DNA of 64,000 bases from Ensifer sp. IC3342 (lineage in GTDB: Bacteria; Pseudomonadota; Alphaproteobacteria; Rhizobiales; Rhizobiaceae), in contig NZ_JADYVE010000001.1 of NCBI RefSeq assembly GCF_020193655.1, forward strand, positions 310,001 through 374,000. Reading direction: 5' to 3'. The notes beneath the pieces were generated by a model, which worked only from the letters and a program-made list of their open reading frames with translations, ran no database searches and had not been told where the DNA came from. How positions within the stretch are numbered: the first letter of the stretch is position 1; the number at the start of each line of letters is the position of its first letter. Of this stretch, positions 12,916 through 16,467 are shown one piece after another. The position numbers and the translations under genes are program-made.

Positions 12916-13074
12916 GCGTTCATGTGAAGAGGCGCGACCATGTTGATGGATTAAATCTGGCCGGGGGCTACTGTGGGTGGTGCCTTCGTCCTCTGAAGCG
13001 CAAACGGGGAAGATTGGCAGGCTTGACGAGCGTCCGCCGGAAGACAAGGTCGCCTGAACCTTTCCTGGCTGGTG

Positions 13075-13854
13075 ATGAACAATGATCTGCTGATTACGCT
13101 GGGAGTCGCCTCTGCCGCGGCTCTCGCGTCGCCGATGGGCGGGCTGATCGCGATCTCGATCAGGCCGTCCAGCCTGGTGGTTTCGATCACCGTCGGCTTC
13201 GCAGCCGGCGTTCTGCTCGGCACTTTCGCGTTTGAAATGATGCCAAAGTCCCTGGAACTGGCGAGCGTCCCGCTCGTCGTCACCGGATTTCTGCTCGGAT
13301 TGGCTCTCGTCTATACTCTCGACCTCTACGTCAATCGCTGGCAAATGGCAGGACCGGAAGCGGATCAAAAGCGTGCGGTCGAGCGCTTGCACCGGCGCTG
13401 GAAGCCGCTCGGCGGCAATGTTGCCGTGCTGGCCGGTGGCACGAGTGCGGAAGAACTGATCGAAGGTATGGCGATCGGCGTCGGCGCGGTCTTCGAGCCT
13501 GGCGTGGCGCTGATCGTGGGCCTGGCCATCTGTATCGACAACCTCAGCGAGGGCATGAGCATCGGCGAATTGATCCTCGACGAGGAGCAGAAGGGCGCGA
13601 ACCGGCAAATACTCGGGTGGACCTCGCTCATCGGCCTCTCTTTGTTCGTTTCGGCTGTGGCCGGATGGTTCTTTCTGAAGGGGCTTTCGGAAACGGTCTT
13701 GGGTTTCCTTTTTGCGATGGGAGCAGGCGGCATGTTCTACCTCACCATGACCGACCTTGTGCCCGAGGCAGAGTCGCATCAGTTCCAGCAGTCCTCGGCG
13801 ATTGCCAATGCCGTCGGCTTCCTGCTGATGATGGCGCTTGCGGAACTGATCTGA
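13075..13854 (+). CDS. ZIP-like membrane protein with altered metal-binding motifs
   Basis: 259 residues from ATG 13075 (a GTG at 13072 is in frame). Eight hydrophobic segments and a charged cytoplasmic loop (about 85-112) match the ZIP (Zrt/Irt-like) transporter layout. The two metal-site helices are recognisable but changed: AGGTSAEELIEGMAIG (120-135) where the family has HN-x-x-D/E, and AICIDNLSEGMSIG (151-164) where it has HN-x-PEG. Both motif histidines are absent (Ser/Asp instead). Either transport specificity has shifted or it is not a zinc transporter. A candidate stress promoter lies upstream; it is convergent with the next gene. Confidence 0.75.
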   Translation: MNNDLLITLGVASAAALASPMGGLIAISIRPSSLVVSITVGFAAGVLLGTFAFEMMPKSLELASVPLVVTGFLLGLALVYTLDLYVNRWQMAGPEADQKRAVERLHRRWKPLGGNVAVLAGGTSAEELIEGMAIGVGAVFEPGVALIVGLAICIDNLSEGMSIGELILDEEQKGANRQILGWTSLIGLSLFVSAVAGWFFLKGLSETVLGFLFAMGAGGMFYLTMTDLVPEAESHQFQQSSAIANAVGFLLMMALAELI

Positions 13855-13868
13855 TTGGGCCATGCATT

Positions 13869-16412
13869 TCAGACAATAGCCCGGTCCCATCCGCCATAGT
13901 GCTCCTCACTGCGCGTCCCGCGCGGCAAGCTGAGCGCGATCAGCGCCAACCCGATCGCGATGTCAGCGAATGCGGCGACCATGCCACCCCCAGCGAGCAA
14001 AAATGGCGATGCCACAACCCATGCACCAAGCGCGACGTTCAGGAAGCGCACCGGGCGGACGACCTCCGCCATCGCCGTGACCGCGACCATGATGACGGTG
14101 CAGCCGACGACGTGATCGCTGTAATAGAGAGGCGGATCACTCCCGAAGACGAGCGGTGTCGCCATCAATATCGTGCCGAGCAGAACGCTCGCCACGAGCG
14201 TCCAGGGGAAATTCACGCCGCCCGTGATGAATTCCTTCAGCAGTTGGGAGGCGGGACGGTCGAGGTCGGGTCCTGGCGTCTGGTTTTCCGAAAGCGCGGG
14301 GCCGCCCATCCAGAATGTCCGCCAAAACGGCTCGCCAGCCCTCTTCGCCCGCCACAGATACTGGATCGTCGCCAACACCTCGTCGACCGAATAGGGGATC
14401 AGCGCGACGGTGACCGCTGCCTGGACGATGCAGAGCGTGCAAAGCGCGCCGATCAGCGGCGGCTGGATAATGATGAACGAGACGCTGACCGCACCTAGCG
14501 GGACGATCAACAAACCGAACAGCAGCACCATCCAAGGCATGGTGCGCCATCGGCGGCGGTCACCGATCGCGCCGGCAAGAATGTCGAGCACATAGGCAAA
14601 GGCGCCGAGCCCGGCATCGGCGATCGGGAAGCCCTTCGACACCCACGACGTGACGACGGCCTCGCTGCCATTGCGGACTGGGGCCCCGCCCGGCCCGAAG
14701 AACGGATCCCATAAGCCGTCAATATGCCCCATCTGATAGGCGGCGAGGTAGCGCGAGACGAACAGACCGACGAAGGCGAGCGCCACGATCGGGATACGCT
14801 GGGTGAATGAGGACGGCGAGTAGCTCCAGCCGAGTGGGCGGTCGTCGTCCGCCGCCAGCGCCCGCCTGCTGATGCCCGGGGTCGGCGGGGTCATAACGGC
14901 GAAAACCGGGATCAGCATGCCGGTGAGCGTGTCAATCGCATAGGCGGCGGCACTTGTCGTCCAGAAGACGAGCGGGGCGAACATGATCCAAACGCCGAGA
15001 GCCGTCGTGATCCACTGCCCCCAGGACCAACGGCGATACATCCCGAACAGCGCGAATGCGACGACGAGCAGTCCGGACACGATCTCGCTCACACCGAGAC
15101 GCGCATTGCGGATATCGGCTTCAGCAATTTCGTGCCCTAGCGCGGGAGGCAGCGGCGCGCCAACGGGATCAAAAAGGCCGAGCGTCATCGCCGAGGCGAC
15201 AAGCCACAGGCCCAGCGCGACGTTCGACAGCGGCGCCCAGAGCGTACGCAGTCGGTGTTGCTCCACGGCAGCCTCAACCTCTTCGTCGCTGCGCTCCAGC
15301 GGTTGCTCGAGCCTCTTCTCGGCCTGCTCGATCTCCGGCTCAGAGGCGGCTACCGCAGAAGGTTCCAGCTTGTTCTTCGCGTACCAATCGGTCGGGTCTT
15401 CCTTCAGCCGTGCGATCATTTCCGGCAGCGTGTCTGCAAGGCTATGTTTGGGCTTCCAGTCGAGCAGGCTTCGGGCGCGGGAAATGTCGATCTCGTAGTG
15501 ATCGTCCGAATTCTCGATCATCCAGGGTTTGATGTCCGTCTCCTGGTCGAGCACCTCTGTTTGTACGCATGCCCCCGTCTTGGCGAGGCCCTTGGGCAGG
15601 ACGAGCGTACGCCAGTGCTCGCCATGGATAAGCTCACCGAAGCGTTTCTGCAGATTCCCATAGGACAGGGTTTCTTCCTCGCCGATCAGCATCACGCTTT
15701 CGTCCGGCAATTCGCCGCGCCGGTCGACGGTGCGCACAAGGACTTCAACCAAATCGTCTTTGTGCAGGTAGGGCTGCCCTGCCCCAAGATCACCACTGAA
15801 AAAGTAGGCTGTGGGGAGTCGCTCGAAGATGCGGGCGATCTGTTGCGCGATGAATGTGGCGCGGCAGTCCTCGTCGTAGACGCCGGCAAGCCGGAGGATC
15901 ACCGTCTTGATCCTGCCGCGCTCTTTCGCAATCAATGCCTCGGTTTCGGCCTTCGACTTCGGATAGGCCCAGGACGGTTCGAGCGGAGAGCCCTCGTCGA
16001 TCGGCACGCCTTTCTCGGGACTCGGAGCGTGCACCAGCAGCGTGCTTGCGAAGACGAACTGCTCTGTCTCCAGGTCTTGCAGCGCGGCGAGCAGCCGGCG
16101 GGTCCCTTGCACATTGACGGCATCATACTTCGGATTGCTCTTGCCGGTCGTGTCGTAATATGCGGCGAGATGGATAACCGAGACCAAGTGGCCGCCGCTG
16201 CGCTCACCCAAGGCCTCTACGGCCGCCTTCACGCTGTCATCGGAGGTAAGGTCTATCTCGATCGTCTCGAAACTGTCGGAAGGTCCTTTAGGAGCGGCCA
16301 GGTCGAAGCCGATCACACGGTATGAATCTCGCAAGCCACGGGCGACCGCTTGGCCAAGAAAACCGCTCGAGCCGGTGATGAGAATGGTCGGTTGATTTGT
16401 CTCTTTCGGCAT
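13869..16412 (-). CDS. Epimerase–SPW repeat–VKOR-like fusion membrane protein
   Basis: 847 residues from ATG 16412 (AAAGGCG upstream). Residues 8 to about 345 are an extended SDR/NAD-dependent epimerase: TGSSGFLG (13-20), Y150-x3-K154. After a charged Glu/Gln-rich linker (about 355-390) come SPW-type membrane pairs (391-510; WAPLSNVALGLWLVAS, TTALGVWIMFAPLVF). A vitamin K epoxide reductase-like segment follows (about 550-700; GLWDPFFGPG, ADAGLGAFAYVLD, and the CTLC redox pair at 658-661), then a second SPW pair (740-835). The other cysteine pair found in VKOR enzymes is not present. Inference: a stress-related envelope redox or nucleotide-sugar protein; function unknown. An EcfG-type promoter lies directly upstream. 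Confidence 0.8.
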   Translation of the reverse strand: MPKETNQPTILITGSSGFLGQAVARGLRDSYRVIGFDLAAPKGPSDSFETIEIDLTSDDSVKAAVEALGERSGGHLVSVIHLAAYYDTTGKSNPKYDAVNVQGTRRLLAALQDLETEQFVFASTLLVHAPSPEKGVPIDEGSPLEPSWAYPKSKAETEALIAKERGRIKTVILRLAGVYDEDCRATFIAQQIARIFERLPTAYFFSGDLGAGQPYLHKDDLVEVLVRTVDRRGELPDESVMLIGEEETLSYGNLQKRFGELIHGEHWRTLVLPKGLAKTGACVQTEVLDQETDIKPWMIENSDDHYEIDISRARSLLDWKPKHSLADTLPEMIARLKEDPTDWYAKNKLEPSAVAASEPEIEQAEKRLEQPLERSDEEVEAAVEQHRLRTLWAPLSNVALGLWLVASAMTLGLFDPVGAPLPPALGHEIAEADIRNARLGVSEIVSGLLVVAFALFGMYRRWSWGQWITTALGVWIMFAPLVFWTTSAAAYAIDTLTGMLIPVFAVMTPPTPGISRRALAADDDRPLGWSYSPSSFTQRIPIVALAFVGLFVSRYLAAYQMGHIDGLWDPFFGPGGAPVRNGSEAVVTSWVSKGFPIADAGLGAFAYVLDILAGAIGDRRRWRTMPWMVLLFGLLIVPLGAVSVSFIIIQPPLIGALCTLCIVQAAVTVALIPYSVDEVLATIQYLWRAKRAGEPFWRTFWMGGPALSENQTPGPDLDRPASQLLKEFITGGVNFPWTLVASVLLGTILMATPLVFGSDPPLYYSDHVVGCTVIMVAVTAMAEVVRPVRFLNVALGAWVVASPFLLAGGGMVAAFADIAIGLALIALSLPRGTRSEEHYGGWDRAIV

Positions 16413-16441: not shown

Positions 16442-16467
16442 AACGTCGGTTCGAACGGGAATGTTCC
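16442..16467 (-). promoter_or_regulatory. EcfG/RpoE2-type promoter before the fusion gene
   Basis: On the minus strand: GGAAC (16467-16463), 17 bases, CGTT (16445-16442). A full match to the GGAAC-N16/17-CGTT general-stress consensus, about 30 bases before the start codon at 16412. The -35 side abuts a partial mosaic repeat. Confidence 0.72.

Follow-up and report, generated by a model that had tools for sequence, protein, structure and literature searches.

Gene layout and predicted fold

We analysed a window of 64,000 nt from Ensifer sp. IC3342 (contig NZ_JADYVE010000001.1, positions 310,001 to 374,000), in which one gene encodes a fusion of a short-chain dehydrogenase/reductase (SDR) with a membrane core consisting of a VKOR domain between two SPW units. 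The gene and its immediate surroundings, in window coordinates, are as follows.

13869..16412, minus strand: fusion coding sequence, SDR-SPW-VKOR-SPW, 847 aa, in a single reading frame
15369..16391, minus strand: extended SDR (epimerase-fold) domain, residues 8-348
15240..15368, minus strand: linker, residues 349-391, predicted to be cytosolic, not His/Met-rich in the window protein
14898..15236, minus strand: SPW unit 1, residues 393-505, four helices in the model (Pfam SPW, E 4e-11)
14388..14792, minus strand: VKOR domain, residues 541-675 (Pfam, E 6e-22)
14430..14441, minus strand: CTLC, residues 658-661, in VKOR helix 4 at the end predicted to be periplasmic
13926..14204, minus strand: SPW unit 2, residues 737-829 (Pfam SPW, E 2e-12)
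16442..16467, minus strand: EcfG/RpoE2-type promoter motif GGAAC-N17-CGTT, upstream of the fusion gene
13072..13854, plus strand: ZIP-family metal transporter (Pfam), convergent, 14 bases from the fusion gene stop

An original prediction, made from the letters of the window, had joined an epimerase-fold SDR, two SPW units and a VKOR-like segment in one 847-residue polypeptide. This architecture was borne out by profile search, in which the SDR, both SPW units and the VKOR domain all exceeded their Pfam cut-offs. The VKOR assignment of the C-terminal part was supported by both profile (78.7 bits, against a Pfam cut-off of 27.5) and fold, as the predicted model contained the four-helix VKOR fold and ranks 1-10 of the structure comparison were all VKOR structures. 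The model has 12 membrane helices, and the charge distribution (K+R at 20/156 'in' residues vs 2/84 'out' residues) is consistent with an N-in topology. The SPW-VKOR-SPW core has many invariant positions, and the conserved stretches GWSYSPS, RRWRTMPWM and HYGGWDR lie on its predicted cytosolic face.

Distribution and phylogeny of the family

VKOR profile matches were found in 7/289 genomes of the class. Five of these genomes, that of the window included, encode an ORF (open reading frame) of 837-893 aa, a length that fits the fusion; the ORFs of the other two are 154 and 446 aa long, and each has a pair of loop cysteines as well as the CxxC; the longer one encodes a VKOR-thioredoxin protein. 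Within the genus, the fusion is present in one frame and at (nearly) full length in 27/33 genomes. No split copy was seen in the genus among the matches listed, and one genome has two short fragments besides a whole copy. As a genome-collection scan found 499 stretches encoding a relative, the fusion is not rare, contrary to the original prediction, which had called it unusual.

The best 80 of the 499 stretches, matched over nearly their whole length, were used for locus analyses. Protein searches, which scored only the 7996 candidates sharing most words, returned 2155 and 2546 relatives, with the best 120 of each set listed. The family alignment comprises 198 rows, 184 of them distinct. Clade A, which includes the window protein, is 69-91% identical to it and spans Sinorhizobium, Mesorhizobium, Bradyrhizobium and others, while the remaining loci of the best 80, here termed clade B, are 43-51% identical. 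In the 86-row tree built from the C-terminal half, clade A formed one group with full support and a very long stem (1.6 changes per column), and six unfused rows formed another, on long branches flagged by the program. Clade B was a grade between the two, the root being placed by midpoint only.

Two gene copies occur in M. camelthorni (L077 and L021, one in clade A and one in clade B), in Mesorhizobium ventifaucium (L022 and L013, both clade A) and in Nitratireductor luteus (L039 and L041, both clade B). In the Sinorhizobium meliloti plasmid records CP130056 and CP130047 the annotation splits the matched stretch into several pieces; some S. meliloti strains seem to carry a broken copy, unless this reflects sequencing error.

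An SDR lacking two nucleotide-phosphate ligands

The SDR of the window protein carries the motifs GxxGxxG (residues 14-20), D37, S123 and Y150-x3-K154. Across the family alignment Y150 and K154 are invariant (198/198 rows), and the NAD site is invariant or nearly so. In sugar epimerases such as Escherichia coli GalE, an Asn and an Arg hold the nucleotide phosphates. The corresponding Asn and Arg of structure 6wjb, called a UDP-GlcNAc epimerase in a sister entry, align with Gly177 (198/198 rows) and Gln213 (197/198 rows) of the family, so that in a test for a nucleoside diphosphate (NDP)-sugar epimerase or dehydratase, the NAD site and Y-x3-K were present and both phosphate ligands absent. Because these two ligands are missing, identity as a sugar epimerase is not well supported, and the label 'nucleotide-sugar-type' given in the original prediction does not hold up.

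A VKOR-type core without shuttle cysteines

VKOR and DsbB are textbook makers of disulfides. The CTLC of the window protein aligns with the CLYC of a canonical VKOR-thioredoxin protein and corresponds to human Cys132 and Cys135. The pair is widely kept: C658 in 189/198 and C661 in 190/198 rows of the family alignment, and the CxxC in 125/127 rows of the C-terminal set. It has also been retained across the long clade A stem. The window protein has no loop cysteines, and none was found in the 127 C-terminal rows, four of which lack part of the loop; the position of human Cys51 is occupied by S583. An intact CTLC without its partner pair, as predicted, was thus confirmed by sequence and alignments.

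Five residues are described as fully conserved in VKORs in the available text of PMC4555120, including loop Cys43 and Cys51, Ser57 and the CxxC. Three of these are present in the window family, namely both CxxC cysteines and the Ser57 equivalent, S589 (198/198 rows), and the two loop cysteines are missing. A further departure concerns the residue four positions after the CxxC (CxxC+4; A665), which is Ala in 191 and Gly in seven of 198 rows. According to the available part of PMC11208910, this residue is Tyr, Trp or Arg in the enzymes studied there, and most of the substitutions tried there lowered DsbB and VKOR activity and left the proteins more reduced in vivo, although a single human variant was tolerated, as was over-expression. 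Since both shuttle cysteines and the residue usual at CxxC+4 are missing, identity as a classical disulfide oxidase is not well supported, and 'thiol-redox module', as first suggested, would not apply in its usual sense.

The CxxC is replaced by STPA in 8/44 clade B members, from Microvirga, Ramlibacter and Pacificimonas (L065, L066, L070, L071, L072, L078, L080 and L081), with the rest of the core kept. All eight have copper, SCO or GH15 neighbours, which argues that the CxxC is not indispensable everywhere; this subclade is a natural test of whether the cysteines matter.

An ordinary short VKOR encoded at L170 (414-875, minus strand) has the loop motif WCPIFGRGC. By eye, the window family shows W-D/E-PFF at this place, as if an acidic residue had taken the position of the first shuttle cysteine.

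Copper genes surround many relatives

Flanks of ~5 kb on each side (less at contig ends) were searched with 36 reference proteins at E 1e-8. The references came mostly from annotated plasmid loci, and were picked after copper genes had been seen near plasmid copies. Core copper genes were defined as CopA-D, copper ATPase, four-helix copper protein, DUF411, CusF and CueR. They were found near 29/45 clade B loci vs 1/39 control stretches (Fisher p 5e-10), a comparison in which same-genus loci are related and most controls come from alphaproteobacterial chromosomes instead of matched islands. With CusAB, CDF, FTR1 and SCO added, the clade B count rose to 36/45. GH15 genes lay near 13/45 clade B loci vs 0/39 controls, and both copper and GH15 counts were the same after references originating in counted loci were dropped. 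At least one locus with a core copper gene was found in 20/30 genus-like groups, as labelled by us. Clade A, processed by the same method, served as an inner control: core copper genes were near 1/36 loci, and the window itself had none. Among clade A loci, L010 (Ensifer sp. IC4062, 1229-1762) alone has a copper ATPase and a CueR-type regulator in its vicinity.

Annotation of plasmid loci outside clade A gave a similar picture, with copper genes in 14/17 (Aquibium L094 on the strength of DUF411), including Cop, Cus, CueR, DUF411, four-helix copper-binding and copper/heavy-metal-ATPase genes. The three loci without copper genes by annotation were those of Sulfitobacter (L089), Microvirga (L097) and Sphingomonas paucimobilis (L099). 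The taxa with copper-context loci cover Proteobacteria, Bacteroidota, Nitrospirota and haloarchaea.

Of the 17 annotated plasmid loci, nine have a GH15 or trehalase-like gene; by Pfam, the trehalase-like Pontibacter actiniarum protein is of an MGH1/GH63-like type. In four loci an MGH1/GH63-like or GH15 glycoside hydrolase gene belongs to the gene run that includes the core (L082:10704-12020, L084:5950-7890, L087:5238-6965 and L093:5899-7812), and a four-helix copper-binding protein is encoded in the neighbourhood of each.

A His/Met-rich tail and two kinds of SDR partner

His+Met make up on average 17.9% of the linker before the first membrane helix in the 44 clade B rows, against 2.9% in the 154 clade A rows. 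Within the C-terminal set, the means were 23.5% for rows unlike the window (68) and 2.8% for rows like it (17), 42 rows with <15 residues before the first helix being left out. The tail is on average also His/Met-rich in unfused relatives. Together with the copper-resistance context, this tail, missed by the original prediction, points to metal stress as the setting of many relatives.

Most annotated plasmid loci link the core to an SDR: 10 of the 17 encode a fusion with an epimerase-type SDR, and six have an SDR gene adjoining the core or one gene away. Two adjacent genes, separated by 35 bases, encode the halves in Pontibacter actiniarum; they are 48% (SDR half) and 40% (core) identical to the window protein. 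Haloarchaea and Nitrospirota have a different type, a classical SDR, adjoining the core or one gene away, and both Cupriavidus loci have a classical SDR gene beside the fusion. Protein P0208 has such a classical SDR, with 71% identity to the Cupriavidus gene, fused to an SPW-VKOR-SPW core; P0185, whose sequence begins inside the SDR, has the same join. The joining of two SDR types to one core argues for a function shared by SDR and core, and the linkage of the two halves supposed at the outset was upheld by these arrangements and by the intact copies of the genus.

A conserved stress-type promoter motif

We scanned up to 250 bases upstream of each gene for GGAAC-N15-18-[CT]GTT, with expectations taken from mononucleotide shuffles. 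The motif was present in 15/35 clade A loci (0.21 expected) and 3/44 clade B loci (0.34 expected). In 14/16 Sinorhizobium/Ensifer loci, that of the window among them, it lies 46-66 bases before the start and its spacers have diverged; the form in L007 (S. meliloti) and L008 is weaker. Only 1/19 clade A loci outside Sinorhizobium/Ensifer has the motif, further upstream. The 64-kb window holds six matches vs 2.5 expected, so a single match means little and it is the conservation that constitutes evidence. The window motif agrees with GGAAC-N16-CGTT reported for Rhizobium etli EcfG1 (PMC3892343) and Sphingopyxis (PMC7083833), and with GGAAC-N17-20-GTT in S. melonis (PMC6599016), in the parts of these papers available. 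The stress control suspected from the window sequence is supported at the level of the promoter motif, and the general stress sigma factor probably activates the fusion gene in Sinorhizobium.

A ZIP gene lies within ~5 kb in 6/36 clade A loci, all of them Sinorhizobium/Ensifer. It is adjacent and convergent in five; in L009 it is >3 kb off on the other side. The pSymB copy of S. meliloti ml21 has the same fusion-ZIP pair. Apart from ZIP, no dominant neighbour family was found in the clade A flanks.

Proposed function and alternatives

Our preferred reading, which we put forward tentatively and at rather less than an even chance, is that the fusion gene encodes a membrane module, derived from VKOR and coupled to an SDR, which serves in copper and redox stress and has here been redirected to the general stress response. 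Its product would be an inner-membrane oxidoreductase module of 12 helices whose NAD(P)-binding SDR lies in the cytosol. The SDR may dock on the conserved cytosolic face of the core formed by GWSYSPS, RRWRTMPWM and HYGGWDR, and the CTLC pair, facing the periplasm, could be a redox or Cu(I)-liganding centre. In this scheme the CTLC would accept electrons, either from Cu(I) or from a small reductant, and hand them inward, working without the DsbA-like protein partner served by ordinary VKORs. Many SPW-VKOR-SPW family members resemble components of copper (metal and redox) tolerance, and the putative metal-binding tail is absent in the clade of the window. Sequence and models support the domains, the predicted fold and topology, the conservation, the SDR pairing, the promoter motif and, for the relatives, the copper context; metal binding, the direction of electron flow, the SDR substrate and stress induction are inferred.

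Several observations weigh against this proposal. There is no core copper gene in the flank seen at 16/45 clade B loci, and the copper comparison involves the related loci and unmatched controls noted above. The core of Pontibacter akesuensis (L083), one of the 17 plasmid loci, has no SDR beside it. Both the replacement of the usual quinone-stabilizing CxxC+4 residue by Ala/Gly in 198/198 rows and the STPA subclade also tell against it. Finally, clade A has neither the copper context, its count being no more than that of the controls, nor the His/Met tail; a copper role for the window gene therefore rests on kinship and on the ZIP neighbour, and its link to metal would be by kinship.

It is also conceivable, but unlikely, that the protein is a DsbB/VKOR-type disulfide enzyme, in which the CTLC undergoes direct exchange with a small thiol or thioredoxin-like partner, feeds the quinone pool and ties disulfide state to the cofactor state of the SDR. 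The VKOR profile and fold, the conserved CTLC and the invariant S589 fit such an enzyme, as does the presence of CcdA near 6/45 clade B loci vs 0/39 controls (p 0.02). TlpA (2/45) and DsbA-family genes (1/45) occurred near clade B loci no more than by chance. The absence of loop cysteines, the Ala/Gly at CxxC+4 and the loss of the CxxC in one subclade all argue against it and, to our knowledge, no direct NAD(P)H-disulfide chemistry of such a kind is known without flavin.

Less likely again is a membrane-tethered SDR, with the 12 helices as anchor and lipid-substrate funnel for an epimerase or dehydratase acting on an envelope lipid or sugar under stress. G177 and Q213 stand in place of the NDP-sugar phosphate ligands, some cores lack an epimerase domain or have a classical SDR in its place, and the core has many invariant positions and mostly keeps its CxxC. 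The least probable explanation, that both domains are relics and the protein is a non-catalytic scaffold under stress or a permeability protein, would suit the STPA members, the lack of a dominant neighbour family in clade A and the 12-helix layout, but not the invariant Y150 and K154 or a CxxC kept in 189-190/198 rows and across the clade A stem.

If the copper and redox stress proposal is true, it would give the VKOR fold a new job and supply a missing part of copper tolerance. The side branch concerned is a large one that retains the CxxC, has lost the shuttle cysteines and is often accompanied by copper-resistance genes in Proteobacteria, Bacteroidota, Nitrospirota and archaea. More broadly, and doubtfully, SPW-VKOR-SPW proteins could be a class of metal-stress membrane oxidoreductase common to bacteria and haloarchaea, in which the VKOR fold left protein-disulfide chemistry and was re-tooled for Cu(I) handling (e.g. 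Cu(I) oxidation at the CTLC), usually partnered by an NAD(P)-dependent SDR and secondarily recruited to the rhizobial general stress response. Most RpoE2-dependent protein genes have no predicted function, according to the available text of PMC3616915, and the fusion represents a testable candidate general-stress gene in rhizobia.

Comparison with known systems

With VKOR proteins (PF07884; Synechococcus 3kp9/4nv5, human 6wv3) the window protein shares the fold over about residues 534-688, the CxxC at the periplasmic end of helix 4 and the Ser57 equivalent. By eye, the W-x-P-x-F loop motif of its family also occurs in the 153 aa ordinary VKOR of L170. The family differs in having no loop cysteine, with Asp/Glu569 at the site of the first one of L170 (by eye), and Ala/Gly at CxxC+4; by eye, Asp stands where human VKOR has Asn80. 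The window protein differs further in its two flanking SPW units, its SDR fusion and the lack of a thioredoxin domain. SPW repeat proteins (PF03779) resemble it in the two units above the Pfam cut-off, but here a VKOR domain lies between the units. Extended SDRs (GalE, UDP-sugar epimerases and dehydratases) have phosphate-binding Asn/Arg where the fusion has Gly177/Gln213, and the fusion has 12 membrane helices after the SDR.

The motif before the fusion gene resembles that of the EcfG/RpoE2 general stress regulon (GGAAC-N16/17-CGTT); the difference is that it is found mainly in the Sinorhizobium/Ensifer part of clade A, where induction is predicted. Among accessory copper-resistance genes, gigPABT of Cupriavidus metallidurans (PMC10304878) is similar in that GigT is a copper-linked membrane protein, for which periplasmic Cu(I) oxidation with electrons passing to the quinol pool has been suggested. 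However, GigT is loosely DoxX-like with three or four spans, and the available text of that paper mentions no SDR, VKOR or SPW.
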